Translations under genes and position numbers: made by a program | Notes under the pieces: generated by a model | What the model was told of the DNA's origin: nothing | The model's database searches: none | The model's input: only the letters and a program-made list of their open reading frames with translations | Assembly (NCBI RefSeq): GCF_000203915.1 | Contig: NC_008391.1 | Location: 1,178,001 to 1,242,000 of the forward strand | Direction of reading: 5' to 3' | Source of the DNA: Burkholderia ambifaria AMMD | GTDB taxonomy: Bacteria > Pseudomonadota > Gammaproteobacteria > Burkholderiales > Burkholderiaceae | Length of the DNA stretch: 64,000 bases | In this document: piece by piece, positions 2,036 through 8,975 of the stretch | Position numbering within the stretch: position 1 is the first letter of the stretch | Layout of the letters: each line of letters starts with the position of its first letter

Positions 2036-2719
2036 TCAGCCGGGCGGATGGCAGGCCGGCGCAAACGGGAAGCCGGCTGAATCGGACGACACGTGGCGCG
2101 CGAGCCACAATGCGGCCTCGGTCCGGTTGCTCACGCCGATCTGGCGAAACAGCGCATACAGGTGGTTCTTGATCGTGCCCTCCGCGACGTTCAGCACGCG
2201 GCAGATCTGCTTGTTCGACTTGCCTTCGGCCAACAGGCGCAGCACGTCGCGCTGGCGCGGCGTGAGGCGCTCGAACGCGCGATCGTCGCCGGCCGGCACG
2301 CCGCCCGGGCGTGCCTGCGTCGCGCCGCCGTCGTTCGGCGGCACGTAGATCGCACCGGCTGCCACCCGGCCGAGCGCATCCGCGAACTCGTCGGCGCTCG
2401 CGTGCCGGTCGATGATGCCGGCGGCCCCCGCCAGCAGCGCATCGGCAATCGTGCGGCGGCACACGGCCGTCGCCACGCACAGCCACGGCGCGCCGGCGAA
2501 CGTCTCGTGCAGCACGTTCGGCCAGCTCGGCCGCGCGGCGTGCTCGTCGCATTCGATCGTGATTGCCTCCACCGTCTCGGGCAGCAACGCATCGCGCAGG
2601 CGCAAGACGTCCTCGGGACAGCGAGCCGACCACACATGCCAGTTGACATCGCGTTTACACAGTACGTCCGCCACACCCGCGACGAATAACGGCGGGCTAT
2701 CGATCATTAGAACGTTCAT
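2036..2719 (-). CDS. LuxR/NarL-type transcriptional regulator with degenerate receiver
   Basis: The C-terminal residues 151-208 form a typical LuxR (GerE) helix-turn-helix: LTPRQRDVLRLLAEGKSNKQI, then GTIKNHLYALFRQIGVSNRTEA. The N-terminal half has receiver-like alternating strands and helices (MNVLMIDSPPLFVAGVADVL), but the usual paired acidic residues are reduced to Asp7-Ser8. I see no canonical phospho-acceptor Asp followed by the MP motif near residue 54. It may therefore be an orphan, phosphorylation-independent regulator. A GAGGA ribosome site precedes ATG 2719. The gene is divergent from the cluster starting at 3002, so it is the natural candidate regulator of that cluster. The target assignment is inference. 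Confidence 0.85.
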   Translation of the reverse strand: MNVLMIDSPPLFVAGVADVLCKRDVNWHVWSARCPEDVLRLRDALLPETVEAITIECDEHAARPSWPNVLHETFAGAPWLCVATAVCRRTIADALLAGAAGIIDRHASADEFADALGRVAAGAIYVPPNDGGATQARPGGVPAGDDRAFERLTPRQRDVLRLLAEGKSNKQICRVLNVAEGTIKNHLYALFRQIGVSNRTEAALWLARHVSSDSAGFPFAPACHPPG

Positions 2720-2826
2720 TGCGCGGTTTCCTCGAAATCGGGCTGCTCGGTTTGTTTTTTTTACTTCCCTACCCGGCGTTTTTTTACCGCTGTTTCACCC
2801 ACCGCGCACTAGGCTCGTCGCTCCGT

Positions 2827-2846
2827 GACGAATGGCCTAATTCGTC
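2827..2846. promoter_or_regulatory. Candidate operator (7-bp inverted repeat) between LuxR gene and DUF2589 cluster
   Basis: GACGAAT at 2827-2833 and ATTCGTC at 2840-2846 form a perfect dyad with a 6-nt spacer, 20 bp overall, which is the usual size for a LuxR/NarL-type site. It lies in the divergent intergenic region, about 110 nt from the regulator start and 155 nt from the DUF2589 start. A second, shorter dyad (5-bp arms) is at 2908-2919. Binding is not shown. Confidence 0.4.
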
Positions 2847-2921
2847 CGCGCCGGGCCCCCGCCACGCGCGCCGATGCCCGTCGCGGGCCGGCCCGGGCCG
2901 CCGGCCGTGACGGACGTCATA

Positions 2922-2994
2922 TTGGGTAACCGTTTTAAATTTCCTAACGTGAATAACGACAGCGAATTTCCGTTGTCTTCGACACGAAGAGGAG
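2922..2994 (+). promoter_or_regulatory. Probable promoter and ribosome site of the DUF2589 cluster
   Basis: TTGGGT (2922-2927) and TAACGT (2945-2950) are separated by 17 nt in an AT-rich patch that contrasts with the very GC-rich DNA just upstream. The strong AGAGGAG ribosome site is at 2988-2994, 7 nt before ATG 3002. The match to the sigma-70 consensus is only moderate, and the small dyad at 2908-2919 sits just upstream of the -35 box. Confidence 0.35.
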
Positions 2995-3001
2995 TTTATT
3001 C

Positions 3002-3694
3002 ATGGACGCGAATTTCATCGGCTCGGTCATTAACGCTTTACCCATGGACCAAATGATCGCCGGCCCTTTAAAGGCGATGATCAGCGCGCAGACGCAGGCC
3101 GCGAAGAGCTACGCGGATTTCCTGATGCAGGTCTGCATCCAGGGCGGCAAGGCCGTGGCCGTCCAGTTCGACTACGACGAGACGCTGGTGGACGAAAGCG
3201 GCGTGTCGAAAGGCGTCGTGCAAAAGACCATGCGCATCCCGCTGCTCGCGGCGATCGTCCACCCGATCATCGCGATCGAGGAGGGCACGATCGACTTCGA
3301 GATGGAAATCACGCAGTCGGAGAAGTCGTCGTCGTCGACCGAGGCTGGCGGCGAATTCCAGGCGAAGCTCGGCTGGGGGCCGATCAGCGTCAGCGTGTCG
3401 GGGCGCGTGTCGCACAAGGCGGAGCAGACGCGCAGCACCGACACGCGCGCGAAATACTCGATCCATACGCAGGTGAAGCGCCAGTCGCCGCCCGAAGCGC
3501 TGATGCGCGTGATCGACTTCCTGACCGAAGCCGCGACCAAGCCGGTGGTCACCGAAGGCAACGCGAAGGACGTGAAGCCGCTGCCGGCGACGCCGACCGA
3601 CGGCAAGCTGGTCGGCGACGCGTCCGGATCGCGCGGCAGCGCGGCCGCGCCGGCCGCTGCCGGTGCGGATGCCCGGCAGCCGGCGCACGCGTAA
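3002..3694 (+). CDS. DUF2589 domain-containing protein (first copy), 230 aa
   Basis: The arrangement matches the DUF2589 family: a helical N-terminus (SAQTQAAKSYADFLMQVC), a beta-rich centre with IPLLAAIVHPIIAIEEGTIDFEMEI, a Ser-rich linker, then a second strand-rich block ending in PPEALMRVIDFLTEA. The last ~40 residues are Ala/Gly/Pro-rich and probably disordered. There is no signal peptide and no certain membrane segment. The family is conserved in bacteria but has no known function. It heads a plus-strand cluster and is followed 15 nt later by a longer paralogue that shares the PPEAxMRVID ending. The start is fixed by a strong AGAGGAG ribosome site. Confidence 0.8.
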   Translation: MDANFIGSVINALPMDQMIAGPLKAMISAQTQAAKSYADFLMQVCIQGGKAVAVQFDYDETLVDESGVSKGVVQKTMRIPLLAAIVHPIIAIEEGTIDFEMEITQSEKSSSSTEAGGEFQAKLGWGPISVSVSGRVSHKAEQTRSTDTRAKYSIHTQVKRQSPPEALMRVIDFLTEAATKPVVTEGNAKDVKPLPATPTDGKLVGDASGSRGSAAAPAAAGADARQPAHA

Positions 3695-3709
3695 GCGCGT
3701 GGACCGGCC

Positions 3710-4612
3710 ATGTTCAGGCTCTTCAGACGGTCGCGCCGCGCGGGCGGCGGCATGCACGGCGACGGGAATCCGCGTCCGGGCGGCGGCAATGCCCGGCAGG
3801 AATCCGACGGGCCGGTCCCGCCGCCGACCGCGCCGGCAGCGGGCCATGCCGGCGCGGATGCTGGCCCGAGCGCGGGTGCCGCTGCACCGGCGGCGATAGG
3901 CGCCGATCCCGCGCGCCACGTGCCGCCCGATGGCGCCGGCTGGCCGGCCGGCGCCGCCGCGGGCACGCATGACGCAGCGGCCACCACGCCCGACGCGTCC
4001 GCTGGCAGCCTGCCGCCTGCCCCACCTGCCCCGCCAGCGCCACCCGCCGCTCCGCCCGGCATGCCGGCCGACGACGCGCGCCCGCCGCCGCGCGGCATCG
4101 CGCTCGACGAGATCGCGCGCGGGATGCAGCACGCCGCCGCCGCCGCGAACCAGTTGCTCGCGCACCAGTACACGGCCGTGCTCGACCAGTTCTTCGACCT
4201 GCGCGACGACGGCCTGCTCGCGCCGCGCGAGGTCACGGTCGCGCTCGACGCGGAGCACACGATGCCGGTGCCGCTCGTCGCGCTCGCCACGCCGCGCGGG
4301 CTCGCGCTCGACCGGATGATCGTGCACCTGACCGTGCGCGGCGACTTCACCGAAGCGCTGCCGGCCGGCGGCGTCGCGGGCGACGACGACCAGCGCAGCC
4401 GCTTCTACGTGACGTTCGCGCCGCGTTCGGCGAAAAAGGACGCGCAGGGCAACGCGCGGCAGCGCGACACCGAGCATATCGACATCGAAATGCAGTTCGT
4501 GGCGCTGGCGCCGCCCGAAGCGATCATGCGCGTGATCGACGAATACACGCATCGCCTGGTGCCGCGCGCACGGCCGGGCAGCAAGGAGAACGACGATGGC
4601 GAACCAGCCTGA
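3710..4612 (+). CDS. DUF2589-related protein (second copy) with long disordered N-terminus, 300 aa
   Basis: After a basic start (MFRLFRRSRRAGGG), about 110 residues are almost only Pro, Ala, Gly and Asp and are presumably disordered. From about residue 120 the protein follows the first DUF2589 copy: a helical segment (LDEIARGMQHAAAAANQLL), a beta-rich core (TVRGDFTEALP, RFYVTFAP), and the same ending PPEAIMRVIDEYTHRL. The two copies therefore look like a diverged tandem pair, possibly two subunits of one assembly. Function is unknown. Its last 17 nt overlap the lysozyme gene start, indicating co-translation. Confidence 0.72.
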   Translation: MFRLFRRSRRAGGGMHGDGNPRPGGGNARQESDGPVPPPTAPAAGHAGADAGPSAGAAAPAAIGADPARHVPPDGAGWPAGAAAGTHDAAATTPDASAGSLPPAPPAPPAPPAAPPGMPADDARPPPRGIALDEIARGMQHAAAAANQLLAHQYTAVLDQFFDLRDDGLLAPREVTVALDAEHTMPVPLVALATPRGLALDRMIVHLTVRGDFTEALPAGGVAGDDDQRSRFYVTFAPRSAKKDAQGNARQRDTEHIDIEMQFVALAPPEAIMRVIDEYTHRLVPRARPGSKENDDGEPA

Positions 4613-5042
4613 ACGTACCGGTGCGCAGGGCATCGCGCTGATCAAGCAGTTCGAGGGGCTGCGCCTCGCTCGCTATCTCGACGCGGTCGGCAAGCCGACG
4701 ATCGGCTACGGGCACCTGATCCTGCCGAACGAGCGCTTCACGCGCCCGCTCACGCCCGCCGAAGCGGAGGCGCTGCTGCGCCGCGACCTGCGCGGCGCCG
4801 AGCTGAACCTGCGCAAGCTGCTGCATGTGCCGGTCACGCAGCAGCAGTTCGACGCGCTGATGTCGTTCGTCTTCAATCTCGGCGCGGGGCGGCTGCGCTC
4901 GTCGACGCTGCTGCGCTACCTGAACGCCGGCGCGCGCACGCGTGCGGCCGACCAGTTCCTCGTCTGGAACAAGGCCGGCGGCAAGCCGCTCGCGGGGCTC
5001 ACGAAGCGCCGCCAGGCCGAGCGCGCGCTGTTTCTGTCATGA
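4596..5042 (+). CDS. GH24 (T4-type) lysozyme without signal peptide
   Basis: A 148-residue glycoside hydrolase family 24 muramidase, which cleaves the MurNAc-GlcNAc bond of peptidoglycan. The catalytic triad has exactly the T4 lysozyme spacing: Glu20, Asp29 and Thr35, within IKQFEGLRLARYLDAVGKPT and IGYGH. The length is that of a bare catalytic domain. There is no signal peptide or SAR-type N-terminus, so it needs a holin-like partner or another route to reach the wall. No holin, endopeptidase Rz or phage structural gene is nearby, which argues against a simple prophage remnant. The start overlaps the end of the second DUF2589 gene by 17 nt. Its job may therefore be tied to the DUF2589 proteins. 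Confidence 0.9.
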   Translation: MANQPERTGAQGIALIKQFEGLRLARYLDAVGKPTIGYGHLILPNERFTRPLTPAEAEALLRRDLRGAELNLRKLLHVPVTQQQFDALMSFVFNLGAGRLRSSTLLRYLNAGARTRAADQFLVWNKAGGKPLAGLTKRRQAERALFLS

Positions 5043-5217
5043 GCGCCGTGACGCCGCACCGGCCGAACGGCACGGGTCGCCGCGCATGCCGTTCGCGCCA
5101 TTTCGCAGGTCGTCGCGGGCCCGTAAGCTGAAACCGTCGCTGAAGTCCGGTCTTGCCGCACCCGATCCGTTACAACGATTCGTCATCCGCCATTCGCCAC
5201 GACAACAGGAGCCTCGA

Positions 5218-6342
5218 ATGAACATCACTCGCTCGCCCGGCCGCACGATGCCGCCCCGCTTCGCCGTTTCGCTTGCCATGCGCCGCGCGCTGCGCACTGC
5301 CTGCGTCGCGTTCGCCGCCGCGGCTGCCGTGGCTTCGGGCGCGCCGCAAGCCGTCGCCGCTTCCGCCGATACGTTGCCCGCCTATGCGGCCGACCTGCAG
5401 CGCACGTCGGTGTCGGGATTGTCGTCCGGCGGCTTCATGGCCGCGCAGTTCGACGTCGCGTTCTCGAGCCGGGTGATCGGCGCGGGCATCGTCGCGGGAG
5501 GCCCGTTCTATTGCGCGGGCGTGAACCCGCTGATCCCGCCGGCGGTGGCCGCGACCACGCTCTGCATGCAGCCGATCGGCCCCGCGCCGTCCGCGACCGA
5601 TGCGTGGCGCGCCGCGCGCACCTTCGCGCAGCGTGGCGAGATCGACGATCCGGCCGCGCTGCGCGGCCAGCGCATCTACGTGTTCAGCGGCGCGAAGGAT
5701 ACGGTGGTGTCGACACGCGTCGTCGACCAGACCGCGCGCTTCTACACGCTCGCGCAGGTGCCGGCCGCGAACCTCCAGTACCGCGCATCGCCGGATGCCG
5801 GGCATGCGTTCATCACGAACCGTCCCGAGGACAACGCGTGCAGCGCGAACGCGAGCCCGTATATCGACAACTGCGGCTTCGAACAGGCGCACGACATCGT
5901 GCGCTGGATCTACGGCACGCCCGACAAGCCGCTCAATCCGCCGGCCGCGCAGGCAGGCGGCAAGCTGCTGGCGTTCGACCAGCGCGCGTTCGATCCGCGG
6001 CGCGCGGCGTCGCTCGGCGATACCGGCTATGCGTACGTGCCGGCCGATTGCGAGCGCGTGACGTGTGCTGTGCACGTGGTATTCCACGGCTGCGTGCAGA
6101 ACGTCGCGGCGGTCGGCGAGAGGATGATTCGCGGCGTCGGCTACAACGAGATCGCCGATACGAACCGGCTGATCGTGCTCTATCCGCAGGTCGAGAAATC
6201 GGCCGTCAATCCGCTCGGCTGCTGGGATTTCTGGGGCTATACGAGCGCCAATCCGCTCAACCCGGGCTTCTACCGCCGCGACGCGCCGCAAATGGCCGCC
6301 GTGATGCGGATGGTGCAGCGCCTCGGCGCCGCGCGCCAGTAA
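5218..6342 (+). CDS. Secreted poly(3-hydroxybutyrate) depolymerase-like hydrolase, 374 aa
   Basis: The start at 5218 follows an AGGAG site and gives a long signal peptide ending near VAASA (residues 45-50). The catalytic domain carries the lipase box GLSSG with nucleophile Ser69, an Asp in AKDTVVS and a His in DAGHAF. This is the Ser-Asp-His order of the PHB depolymerase / polyester esterase superfamily. The C-terminal third (CWDFWGYTSANPLNPGFY) matches PHB depolymerase-family proteins of Burkholderia and of Rhodospirillum-type periplasmic enzymes. It likely acts in the periplasm or outside the cell on PHB or another ester polymer; the substrate is inferred. It follows the lysozyme after 175 nt and precedes a phasin-like gene. 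Confidence 0.85.
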   Translation: MNITRSPGRTMPPRFAVSLAMRRALRTACVAFAAAAAVASGAPQAVAASADTLPAYAADLQRTSVSGLSSGGFMAAQFDVAFSSRVIGAGIVAGGPFYCAGVNPLIPPAVAATTLCMQPIGPAPSATDAWRAARTFAQRGEIDDPAALRGQRIYVFSGAKDTVVSTRVVDQTARFYTLAQVPAANLQYRASPDAGHAFITNRPEDNACSANASPYIDNCGFEQAHDIVRWIYGTPDKPLNPPAAQAGGKLLAFDQRAFDPRRAASLGDTGYAYVPADCERVTCAVHVVFHGCVQNVAAVGERMIRGVGYNEIADTNRLIVLYPQVEKSAVNPLGCWDFWGYTSANPLNPGFYRRDAPQMAAVMRMVQRLGAARQ

Positions 6343-6397
6343 TCCGCGTATCGGCCGCCATCGCACCGACATTGCTCCTTCATCACGAGGAATCGCC

Positions 6398-6940
6398 ATG
6401 TTCTCCACGTTCATCGCCCAATGGGAACGCGCGCACGCCGACGCGCTCCAGCTGTTCGGCAAGCTCGCCGCGCAGACGACCAGCACCGGCGGCACGCCCG
6501 GCGCCCCCGCGTGGCGCGCGTTCGCGCACACCGCGCTGCTCGCCGGCCACCGCTATTCGGATACCTGCCAGGCCGCGACCGACGCGTTGTGGCGCGGTCA
6601 GCTCGAACGGTTCGGGCTCGGCAGTTCGGCCGCCGCGGTCAAGGAGTTGGCGGCGCTGAACGCGGATCTCGCCACGCGCTTCACGCAGAGCCACCTGCAG
6701 CATGCGGGCGCGATGGCGGATGCGGCCGCGCAATACCTCGACGATCTCGGCCGCACGCGCGGGCCGGCCGATGCCGCGATGGCGCTCGGCCGCTTCGCCG
6801 GCGACCTGCAGGCGCAGGCGCGTGCGCATGCGCTGCACGTCGCGTCGCTCGCGAACGGCGTCCCGCCCGCGCTTGCACAGTGGGCCGACCGCACGCTGCG
6901 TGACGAACGCGGCACGCCCGATCAGGAGCAAGCGCTATGA
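6398..6940 (+). CDS. Phasin-like helical protein, 180 aa
   Basis: The protein is almost wholly alpha-helical and Ala-rich, with amphipathic heptad-like stretches (FIAQWERAHADALQLFGKLAAQ, AALNADLATRFTQSHLQHAGAM) and no signal peptide. Size, composition and the neighbouring PHB-depolymerase-like gene resemble phasins, the coat proteins of PHB granules, but I see no defining phasin motif. A generic helical bundle, for instance a chaperone for the following proteins, is equally possible. It ends in an ATGA overlap with the next gene (start 6937), so the two are translationally coupled. This links it to the three-paralogue family downstream. Confidence 0.55.
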   Translation: MFSTFIAQWERAHADALQLFGKLAAQTTSTGGTPGAPAWRAFAHTALLAGHRYSDTCQAATDALWRGQLERFGLGSSAAAVKELAALNADLATRFTQSHLQHAGAMADAAAQYLDDLGRTRGPADAAMALGRFAGDLQAQARAHALHVASLANGVPPALAQWADRTLRDERGTPDQEQAL

Positions 6941-7557
6941 ACATCAAGCTGCGCTTCATCAATCGCTCGAACGACCTCGGCAACAGCGAAGTCGTGCTGT
7001 TCCAGCGCGACGTGATTCCCGATCTCGACGCATTCGCGATCGCGTGGAAGGTGATTCGCTACTGCGGGCGCGACTGCTTTCATCCGTTCGACTACTCGAC
7101 CGACATCGACGTCGCGCTCGGCGACGAGCACGGCAACTTCTCGCCGCGCGTCACGGCGCCCGCCGGCGTGCGCTTCGTCGTGGACCCGCAGCCGACCGGA
7201 CGCGGCCGGCTCGTGCCCGACCCGGCCGATGCAGCGGGCGGCGACATCGAGGTCGTCAACCGGATGCGGCGCGGCGCGGTGAACGTCAACGCGTTCAGCG
7301 CGGGCCGGCTGATCGCGGTGAAGGAAGCGGTCGCGCCCGGGCAGAAGGCCGTGTTCCGCTTCACGCCCACGTTGTGGATCGGCGTGGCGTCGCAGGTGCA
7401 GGAAAGCCGCGCGCTGCACGCGGCGGTGATGTCGAGCGCGAACACGCAGCTGCCGCTCGCGGGCGTGGCCGCGGCAGACATCGTGATGACGGGCGGCGGC
7501 ACCGGCGCCGACGCGCAGCCGTTCGCGTTCGCGCTCGAGCACATCGTGCGCGCGTAG
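6937..7557 (+). CDS. Unknown tandem-paralogue family, copy A (206 aa)
   Basis: First and most divergent of three adjacent paralogues. Shared landmarks are the N-terminal NxSNDxxNSxVVxFQ block (here INRSNDLGNSEVVLFQRDV), an AIAWKVI-x-CG-x-x-x-x-HPF segment, PGQKAVFxFxPTxWIGVASQ, and the C-terminal ADIVMTGGG. It is a soluble, beta-rich protein with no signal peptide and no metal or nucleotide motif that I can see. I do not recognise a named family. The start overlaps the previous gene by 4 nt (ATGA). A hairpin with a T run lies 85 nt after its stop, which may reduce read-through to copies B and C. Confidence 0.75.
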   Translation: MNIKLRFINRSNDLGNSEVVLFQRDVIPDLDAFAIAWKVIRYCGRDCFHPFDYSTDIDVALGDEHGNFSPRVTAPAGVRFVVDPQPTGRGRLVPDPADAAGGDIEVVNRMRRGAVNVNAFSAGRLIAVKEAVAPGQKAVFRFTPTLWIGVASQVQESRALHAAVMSSANTQLPLAGVAAADIVMTGGGTGADAQPFAFALEHIVRA

Positions 7558-7625
7558 CGCCGCCCGATACCGTTTGGACCGGCTTGACGGCACGGCCTCG
7601 CGGCCGGGCCGGCGGGAAAGGTGTG

Positions 7626-7649
7626 CGGCAGACCGACTGCCGTTTTTTT
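7626..7649 (+). terminator. Terminator or attenuator between paralogues A and B
   Basis: CGGCAG (7626-7631) pairs with CTGCCG (7637-7642) around a 5-nt loop and is followed directly by seven T residues (7643-7649). The stem is short but all G-C but one. The AAGGAG ribosome site of the next gene lies just downstream, so this could set the ratio of copy A to copies B and C. Confidence 0.55.
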
Positions 7650-7669
7650 CAAACTCAAGGAGCAACGAC

Positions 7670-8287
7670 GTGGATATCCAACTGAACCTGATCAACCGCT
7701 CGAACGACGCGAACAACTCGAGCGTCGTGATCTTCCAGAAGAACGTGGCGACCGATTTCGACGAACTCGCGATCGCGTGGAAGGTGATCCGCAATTGCGG
7801 CCAGGGCGACAACCATCCGTTCAAGTTCCCGATGACGATGAGCGTCAGCGCGAGCGACAGCTGGGGCAACTACATGCCGCAGCAGATCGCGAACAACGGC
7901 CAGGTGTTCCAGGTCGTGCGCTCCAGCTCGGGCGACGTGCTGCAGCTCGGCGGCGATCCGGGCGCGAGCGCCGAGGTGCAGGTGCGCAACGACCTGCCGG
8001 CCGGCGCGATCAACGCGACGATCTACAAGGACGGCAGCGCGCTCGCGCGCAAGACGTCCGTCGCGCCGGGCCAGAAGGCCGTGTTCCAGTTCAAGCCGAC
8101 GATCTGGATCGGCGTCGCGTCGCAGATCGAACAGGGCGCGCTGATGAATTCCGCCGTGATCTCCGACATCAACACGGAACTGTCGCTGCTCGGCATCGCG
8201 AGCGCCGACATCGTGATGACCGGCGGCGGCCCGGGCCCGCGCTCGCTGCCGTTCACGTTCCGGCTGGAAAACGTGGTGATGGCGTAA
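7670..8287 (+). CDS. Unknown tandem-paralogue family, copy B (205 aa)
   Basis: Starts at GTG 7670, after an AAGGAG site with suitable spacing and at the exact position of the family's conserved MDIxLN start; further upstream the frame runs through the terminator. By eye it is about two-thirds identical to copy C. Shared blocks include NNSSVVIFQKNV, TDFDELAIAWKVI, GDNHPF, GNYMPQ, PGQKAVFQFKP, ASQIEQGALMNSAV and INTELSLLGI. No signal peptide, cysteine pattern or known catalytic motif is seen. The strict conservation of whole blocks suggests a structural protein, perhaps a homo- or hetero-oligomer formed with the other copies. That is inference; the function is unknown. Confidence 0.78.
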   Translation: MDIQLNLINRSNDANNSSVVIFQKNVATDFDELAIAWKVIRNCGQGDNHPFKFPMTMSVSASDSWGNYMPQQIANNGQVFQVVRSSSGDVLQLGGDPGASAEVQVRNDLPAGAINATIYKDGSALARKTSVAPGQKAVFQFKPTIWIGVASQIEQGALMNSAVISDINTELSLLGIASADIVMTGGGPGPRSLPFTFRLENVVMA

Positions 8288-8295
8288 CGGTTCGT

Positions 8296-8319
8296 GCGCC
8301 GGCAACGCATGGCCGGCGC
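8296..8319 (+). repeat. Hairpin between paralogues B and C
   Basis: GCGCCGGC (8296-8303) and GCCGGCGC (8312-8319) form a perfect 8-bp stem with an 8-nt loop in the 70-nt gap between copies B and C. There is no T tract, so it is more likely an mRNA-stabilising or pausing hairpin than a terminator. Confidence 0.45.
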
Positions 8320-8357
8320 CCTATCAATCAGTTATCCGAATCGAATCAAGGTGACTC

Positions 8358-8975
8358 ATGGACATCAATCTCAACTTCGTCAACCTGTCGAACGACGTCA
8401 ACAACAGCCAGATCGTGATCTTCCAGAAGAACGTGTCGACGGACTTCGACGAGCTCGCGATCGCGTGGAAGGTCATCACCAACTGCGGACGCGGCGACAA
8501 CCATCCGTTCGTGTTCCCGTTGCTGACGACCGTCTCCGCGAGCGATGCCGACGGGAACTACATGCCGCAAAAGCGCGCGGACAACGGACAGCTCTTCAAC
8601 GTGTCGCGCTCGACGTCGGGCAACGTGCTCGCGCTGGCCGGCCCGGCGCCGACGTCGCGCGAGATCCAGCTGCGCAACGACCTGAGCCAGGGGGCGATCA
8701 CCGCGTCGGTCTTCAAGGACAACCGGCTGCTCGCGCACAAGACCGGCATCGTGCCGGGCCAGAAGGCCGTGTTCGAGTTCAAGCCGACGCTGTGGATCGG
8801 CACCGCGTCGCAGATCGAACAGGGCGCGGTGATGAATTCGGCCGTGCTGTCCGACATCAACACCGAACTGTCGCTGCTCGGGATCAAGCGTGCCGACATC
8901 GTGATGACGGGCGGCGGCGGCGGCACCACCGCGACCGCGTACCAGTTCCGGCTCGCGAACGTCGTGATGGGGTAA
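8358..8975 (+). CDS. Unknown tandem-paralogue family, copy C (205 aa)
   Basis: Third paralogue, same length as copy B, with ATG 8358 preceded by AAGGTGA. It keeps all family blocks: NLSNDVNNSQIVIFQKNV, FDELAIAWKVITNCG, GDNHPF, PGQKAVFEFKPTLWIG, NSAVLSDINTELSLLGI and ADIVMTGGG. The variable regions relative to B are residues ~50-60, 75-115 and the C-terminal 15, suggesting surface variation on a conserved core. It is the last gene of the cluster and is convergent with the EamA exporter at 9034. No function can be assigned. The GC content matches its neighbours, so recent foreign origin is not evident. Confidence 0.78.
   Translation: MDINLNFVNLSNDVNNSQIVIFQKNVSTDFDELAIAWKVITNCGRGDNHPFVFPLLTTVSASDADGNYMPQKRADNGQLFNVSRSTSGNVLALAGPAPTSREIQLRNDLSQGAITASVFKDNRLLAHKTGIVPGQKAVFEFKPTLWIGTASQIEQGAVMNSAVLSDINTELSLLGIKRADIVMTGGGGGTTATAYQFRLANVVMG

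Follow-up and report, generated by a model that had tools for sequence, protein, structure and literature searches.

Introduction

In type 10 secretion, a holin lets an endolysin into the periplasm and spanins act last; examples are the lysis cassettes ChiWXYZ of Serratia and YenLC of Yersinia entomophaga (PMC10847048). The uncharacterized protein family DUF2589 (PF11655) is almost unstudied: a full-text search of the available literature for its name gave a single paper, with a one-sentence mention. Here we analyze a cluster of nine genes (positions 2036–8975) in a 64,000-nucleotide stretch of Burkholderia ambifaria AMMD (the window; assembly GCF_000203915.1, contig NC_008391.1, positions 1,178,001–1,242,000), whose genome comprises 7.53 Mb on four contigs. 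The cluster holds an orphan regulator, two DUF2589 genes (dufA and dufB), a lysozyme of family GH24, a polyhydroxyalkanoate (PHA) depolymerase, a phasin-like gene and three paralogues (copies A, B and C). An earlier note on this DNA had proposed that these genes form one system, in which wall cutting serves the release of an assembly or which underlies a PHA-related trait. Comparison across genomes indicates instead that two modules are combined here, a DUF2589–lysozyme core and a three-gene paralogue module.

With type 10 systems the cluster shares a signal-less endolysin and a dedicated regulator, located outside a phage and beside candidate cytoplasmic cargo; it differs from them in having a DUF2589 pair but no recognized holin or spanin, and because neither was recognized we do not file it as a type 10 secretion system. 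The Yersinia lysis cassette is discrete from its toxin island, unlike the window cluster (PMC10847048). The lysozyme resembles GH24-type phage endolysins, matching both PHROG endolysin families (phrog_7, E 7.9e-54) and Phage_lysozyme; the cluster differs from phage modules in that no other of its proteins has a strong PHROG match and no phage record encodes copy C. With PHA gene sets it has in common one depolymerase and one weak phasin-like gene, but no PHA synthase was found among the scanned cluster proteins, and both PHA genes are dispensable in relatives.

Results

Both DUF2589 proteins pass the curated cut-off of their family (92.2 bits for dufA and 37.6 for dufB; cut-off 23) and are its only matches in the genome; dufA is 83–96% identical in 10 aligned relatives. 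The lysozyme, the sole PF00959 match in the genome (143.1 bits; cut-off 22.3), carries at residue 20 the pattern E-8-D-5-T, which we take to be the GH24 catalytic motif and which is present in 6 of 7 GH24 proteins examined. Like a type 10 endolysin it appears to have no export signal, since a crude hydrophobicity test finds no hydrophobic N-terminus; by the same test the DUF2589 proteins and copies A–C have no export signal either. These results bear out the earlier note's reading of the DUF2589 pair and of a GH24 lysozyme with no signal.

Joint recurrence of the regulator, the DUF2589 pair and the GH24 gene had been set beforehand as the test of a shared system. The full block, from the regulator through dufA, dufB, lysozyme, depolymerase and phasin-like gene to copies A, B and C, is retained, to the extent that the contigs cover it, in Burkholderia, Paraburkholderia and Trinickia, with the exceptions of a Trinickia locus (L018) that has neither the depolymerase nor the phasin-like gene and a Burkholderia locus (L007) with a 55-bit depolymerase remnant only and no phasin-like match. 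Carriers of the cluster include the non-pathogenic Paraburkholderia strains P. phenazinium LMG 2247 and P. terricola LMG 20594 (loci L010 and L013). In the three loci read from genus g173 (L150, L151 and L154), the cluster consists of the regulator, dufA, dufB, the GH24 gene and a small secreted protein only. The series dufA-dufB-GH24 is also found in IMG/VR contigs L066–L068, which are similar and were counted as one lineage, and in genome G1019 (L127). In L067 and L127 it is followed by a gene for a small secreted protein and by two for small proteins containing hydrophobic stretches, a related regulator standing at the far end; L066–L068 have a further GH24 gene upstream of dufA. Related regulators stand beside the same core in L150, L151, L154, L067 and L127. 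Because the joint set recurs in these independent lineages (g173, L066–L068 and G1019), gene neighborhoods indicate that the regulator, the DUF2589 pair and the lysozyme are a recurring unit. With start codons chosen by us, the end of dufB and the start of the GH24 gene share sequence in six groups: the window, L010, L018, L150, L067 and L127.

At all four loci examined for it (L010, L014, L016 and L018), the lysozyme is followed by an extra gene for a small protein with a hydrophobic N-terminus, and such a gene also follows GH24 in L067, L127 and L150. The window has no room for it: the gap between lysozyme and depolymerase is 175 bp. The L067 contig also carries an integrase and, within its DUF2589–lysozyme cluster (5198–5728), a protein that resembles RNase A and looks secreted (CdiA-CT RNase A domain, E 2.9e-8).

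The comparison does not support one indivisible system: the minimal g173 clusters (3 loci read) have neither copies A–C nor the phasin-like gene nor the depolymerase, and outside the family copies A–C stand in other neighborhoods. The secreted esterase of the earlier note is a type 2 extracellular short-chain-length PHA (scl-PHA) depolymerase with a hydrophobic N-terminus (NCBIfam NF050059, 383.6 bits; cut-off 280). The phasin-like gene is present where that note placed it; its Phasin_2 match falls below the cut-off (20.2 bits vs 24.9). As both genes are missing from Trinickia L018 and the g173 loci, a PHA trait cannot be the core function, and gene content marks the two as accessory. Judged from gene order, the paralogue module and the PHA-related enzymes are appended to the core in Burkholderia, Paraburkholderia and Trinickia.

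DUF2589 extends well beyond this family. Matches were found in 7 of 299 genomes of the window's phylum, 27 of 200 of its family (two matches each), 21 of 345 in the order to which a Colwellia genome belongs and 10 of 198 in the phylum to which a Bacteroidetes genome belongs; two further searches gave 2 of 78 (both already known) and 2 of 200 (one new), and none of 14 control genomes had a match. Three layouts occur: dufA-dufB-hydrolase, the pair with a protein of ~90 amino acids, and DUF2589 with two other proteins. Wall hydrolases of seven Pfam families lie nearby: GH24 (G000, G688, G884, G1019), GH19 (G163, G170), Amidase_3 (G040), N-acetylmuramidase, pesticin-type (G806, and a pesticin-like match just below cut-off in G677), M15 (G1125) and CHAP (G1118), the pesticin-type and GH24 families being related. 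Such a hydrolase stands within ~2 kb of DUF2589 in at least 11 of 35 genomes (10 of 34 without the window's own), a lower bound given that the neighbors were scanned in part. The 35 include the window's genome and the centers G677 and G680, chosen for holding paralogues, and leave out four Bacteroidota genomes with fragments of 41–51 profile positions. Excluded as partners were a membrane-anchored GH19+LysM protein (L112), an NlpC protein (L124) and a peptidoglycan-binding match below cut-off (L129); in G254, G715, G893 and G796 two DUF2589 matches have identical frame length, are likely one frame and were not counted as pairs.

Of 14 GH24 matches, one is the window's own, and 3 of the 13 others lie within 2 kb of DUF2589, where 0.039 would be expected by chance in a 12-kb span (Poisson P 9e-6). 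With starts chosen by us, 16 of 17 hydrolases have no hydrophobic N-terminus (score ≤1.50), as compared to ≥2.08 in the controls, five secreted proteins and an NlpC lipoprotein.

Several DUF2589 loci have further features. In L039 (7466–13317), from a zetaproteobacterial-looking genome whose group is guessed, two DUF2589 genes share one stretch with a divergent response regulator, a Tle1-like lipase and a gene for an Amidase_3 protein. At the G170 locus, a 1756-amino-acid protein, DUF4157-like by eye, adjoins the GH19 gene (L038, 1771–7041). L152 (7468–10367) and L153 (7981–10856) come from two genomes of the window's genus that have no paralogues and show another DUF2589 layout with two accompanying proteins; no near hydrolase was recognized at their DUF2589 loci.

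As for the paralogues, identity to copy C is 69% for copy B and 43% for copy A, and none of the three has a match above Pfam or NCBIfam cut-offs or in PADLOC (copy B gave chance-level rows only, Pfam E 0.11 and PHROGs E 0.011). A search of genome contigs found the nearest relatives of copy C in Burkholderia species. Copy C is predicted with good confidence to be a beta-sandwich (mean predicted local distance difference test score, pLDDT, 88.9), and its structural matches seem to reflect a common arrangement. In the 23-row tree, several rows of which are long and unsure, one branch (support 90/98; recovered in 92% of bootstrap trees) sets apart the A-like rows, whose sources are Burkholderiaceae, Colwellia, G701, Photobacterium and a genome of acidobacterial type; because A-like rows across phyla share one side, the mixed A + B/C set is probably old.

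Within the family, paralogues occur in 13 of 200 genomes, each time as a set of three, and every one of these 13 belongs to the 27 that carry DUF2589 (hypergeometric P 2e-13, kinship ignored); the other 14 DUF2589 genomes have none. In the Colwellia order 2 of 345 genomes have paralogues, G677 (chosen for them) with DUF2589 and G701 without it. Among 15 other DUF2589 genomes paralogues occur in two, the chosen center G680 and G1118, the latter by a weak match, and of four paralogue genomes outside Burkholderiaceae two have DUF2589, on other contigs. At L022 (4865–10254) and L148 (7976–12170), paralogues follow a Mor-type regulator; there and at L024 (8001–12638) a large protein of 825–955 amino acids with no assigned function comes after them, followed in L024 by a tail-collar-domain protein, to which a protein of L022 is similar. 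By gene content, these three are a different kind of paralogue locus.

The regulator matches Pfam GerE (5.3e-18) and, over residues 2–209, an NCBIfam NarL model below its cut-off; its aligned sequence reads E-C at the expected receiver aspartate, and its 16 Pfam rows, all helix-turn-helix-like or weak, include no autoinducer-binding domain. The label of an autoinducer-type LuxR protein is therefore corrected to a NarL-type regulator with a degenerate receiver, and density control, which the earlier note had raised, is unsupported because no autoinducer-binding domain is reported. Among 11 aligned loci, the dyad-like element between the regulator and dufA is similar in 9, most diverged in L018 and not seen in L150 and L154; its position and conservation make it a possible regulator site. 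A hairpin directly precedes the ribosome-binding site of copy B in all 11 loci read (the window, L003, L006, L009, L010, L011, L012, L014, L018, L019 and L020). Its stem shows a paired change, GGCAG/CTGCC in the window vs GGCAA/TTGCC in most relatives, and because its T run varies a full terminator is not established; the hairpin may determine how much of copy A is made relative to copies B and C.

All nine genes are open at the positions first described (Table 1), the overlaps of 17 nt (4596–4612) and ATGA (6937–6940) are exact, and dN/dS (nonsynonymous to synonymous substitution) ratios of 0.07–0.40 against two relatives point to purifying selection on every gene. No curated secretion, phage-structural or defense family was recognized among the cluster proteins in Pfam, NCBIfam, PHROGs or PADLOC, in agreement with the earlier note. 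In PADLOC, 9 of 10 cluster proteins have no row at all, the regulator matches only the C-terminal part of CARF/Cas-regulator models through its DNA-binding region, and the cluster proteins fit no model of a known anti-phage defense system. A small protein and a 346-amino-acid protein with hydrophobic segments adjoin the regulator (599–1985); matches to the latter adjoin the cluster at many loci of Burkholderia, Paraburkholderia and Trinickia and at none of the g173 loci read.

Table 1. Genes and putative regulatory elements of the cluster, in window coordinates.
Feature	Position	Strand	Observation
NarL-type orphan regulator (luxR)	2036–2719	-	GerE helix-turn-helix, degenerate receiver
Dyad-like element between regulator and dufA	2805–2846		Conserved; possible regulator site
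dufA, DUF2589 protein	3002–3694	+	PF11655 E 5.4e-26
dufB, DUF2589 protein, Pro/Ala-rich N-terminus	3710–4612	+	PF11655 E 3.6e-9
Signal-less GH24 lysozyme	4596–5042	+	PF00959 (Phage_lysozyme) E 7.4e-42
Extracellular type 2 scl-PHA depolymerase, hydrophobic N-terminus, accessory	5218–6342	+	NF050059 E 6.8e-115
Phasin-like protein, accessory	6398–6940	+	Phasin_2 E 7.2e-4, below cut-off
Copy A, beta-sandwich family, A type	6937–7557	+	A-like side of tree branch
Hairpin and T run between copies A and B	7625–7649	+	Terminator-like match
Copy B, beta-sandwich family, B/C type, GTG start	7670–8287	+	95% identity in L012, 89% in L010
Copy C, beta-sandwich family, B/C type	8358–8975	+	Predicted beta-sandwich; relatives in 23 loci

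Discussion

Our best guess, to which we give a probability of roughly 0.4, is that the cluster is a regulated cassette for opening the wall, through which cytoplasmic proteins leave the cell; that wall cutting serves the release of an assembly is likewise a best guess. Action of the regulator would lead to dufB and lysozyme being made together, and the lysozyme would reach the wall via a membrane lesion or a carrier whose genes lie elsewhere; perhaps the two small membrane proteins in the L067 and L127 clusters would give it access. Once there, it would open the wall locally or by lysis of a few cells, freeing the cytoplasmic, signal-less proteins (DUF2589 assemblies and copies A–C), and the depolymerase would exit by the normal secretory route. 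By likeness only, such a cassette would act as a holin/endolysin release cassette does. In its favor are the recurrence of the core in several lineages, the overlaps between dufB and GH24, the excess of GH24 genes close to DUF2589 over chance, the seven families of wall hydrolases nearby, 16 of 17 tested members having no hydrophobic N-terminus, and the two small membrane proteins that follow GH24 in L067 and L127.

A number of observations weigh against this reading. Firstly, no holin family was matched in ten cluster proteins, the 346-amino-acid neighbor included, holins being so diverse that a miss is weak evidence; no spanin was recognized among the scanned cluster proteins, small or embedded frames lying outside the scan; and the two small membrane proteins of L067 and L127 match no holin family. 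Secondly, the GH24 partner in L115 is without the E-8-D-5-T pattern, and 24 of 35 DUF2589 genomes have no recognized wall hydrolase nearby, their neighbors having been partly scanned. Thirdly, the hydrophobicity test is crude, a patatin-like protein scoring 2.07, on a par with the secreted control of lowest score (2.08), and an upstream start in the L134 and L135 hydrolases would add a short hydrophobic stretch. Fourthly, the DUF2589–paralogue association fails outside the family. Lastly, a bacterial-type wall is absent in an archaeon. One paper reports DUF2589-related genes in such an organism.

We also propose, tentatively, an undescribed carrier or assembly that has DUF2589 A/B pairs as its core and takes up interchangeable hydrolases without a signal, drawn from the seven wall-hydrolase Pfam families; this single joint claim takes in several bacterial phyla and the reported archaeon, with Burkholderia and its kin adding a heterotypic beta-sandwich A + B/C set. 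An armed carrier is the main rival to the wall-opening cassette: a DUF2589 A/B hetero-assembly would carry or export an antibacterial effector, namely a swappable hydrolase, with the small secreted protein as a periplasmic protector. The changing hydrolase family beside a constant DUF2589, the small protein with a hydrophobic N-terminus after GH24 at seven loci (L010, L014, L016, L018, L067, L127 and L150) and the effector-like enzymes nearby (the Tle1-like lipase of L039, the RNase A-like protein of L067 and a pesticin-type lysozyme in L116) are what it would lead one to expect. It remains doubtful, however: the window keeps its lysozyme with no room for the small protein, which therefore cannot be an essential protector there, and Pfam, NCBIfam and PHROGs scans recognized no known delivery device in the cluster.

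We consider it unlikely that the DUF2589–lysozyme module and the paralogue/PHA genes are two independent neighbors that just happen to adjoin in one clade. Both do occur on different contigs in Colwellia G677 and Bacteroidetes G680, G678, G679 and G701 have paralogues without DUF2589, genus g173 has the core without paralogues, and a conserved hairpin stands between copies A and B; yet the nesting of all 13 paralogue genomes within the 27 with DUF2589, at the P value given above, and a gene order kept across three genera argue for a link, as do Mor-type regulators found both near DUF2589 (L046, L048) and near paralogues (L022, L148). That lysis and the depolymerase mobilize the storage polymer of dead kin, with DUF2589 proteins and copies A–C on granules, is very improbable, for although the depolymerase exceeds its NCBIfam cut-off and a weak phasin match accompanies it, Trinickia L018 and the g173 loci do without both genes.

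The DUF2589–hydrolase module is thus widespread and unstudied, and the paralogue module is separate from it. Since the comparison sets the widespread core apart from the PHA and paralogue genes as accessories, experiments can begin at the minimal five-gene version. DUF2589 recurs with wall hydrolases that change in family and have no signal; this link opens its function to tests and points to either a new route of release or a new carrier for effectors.

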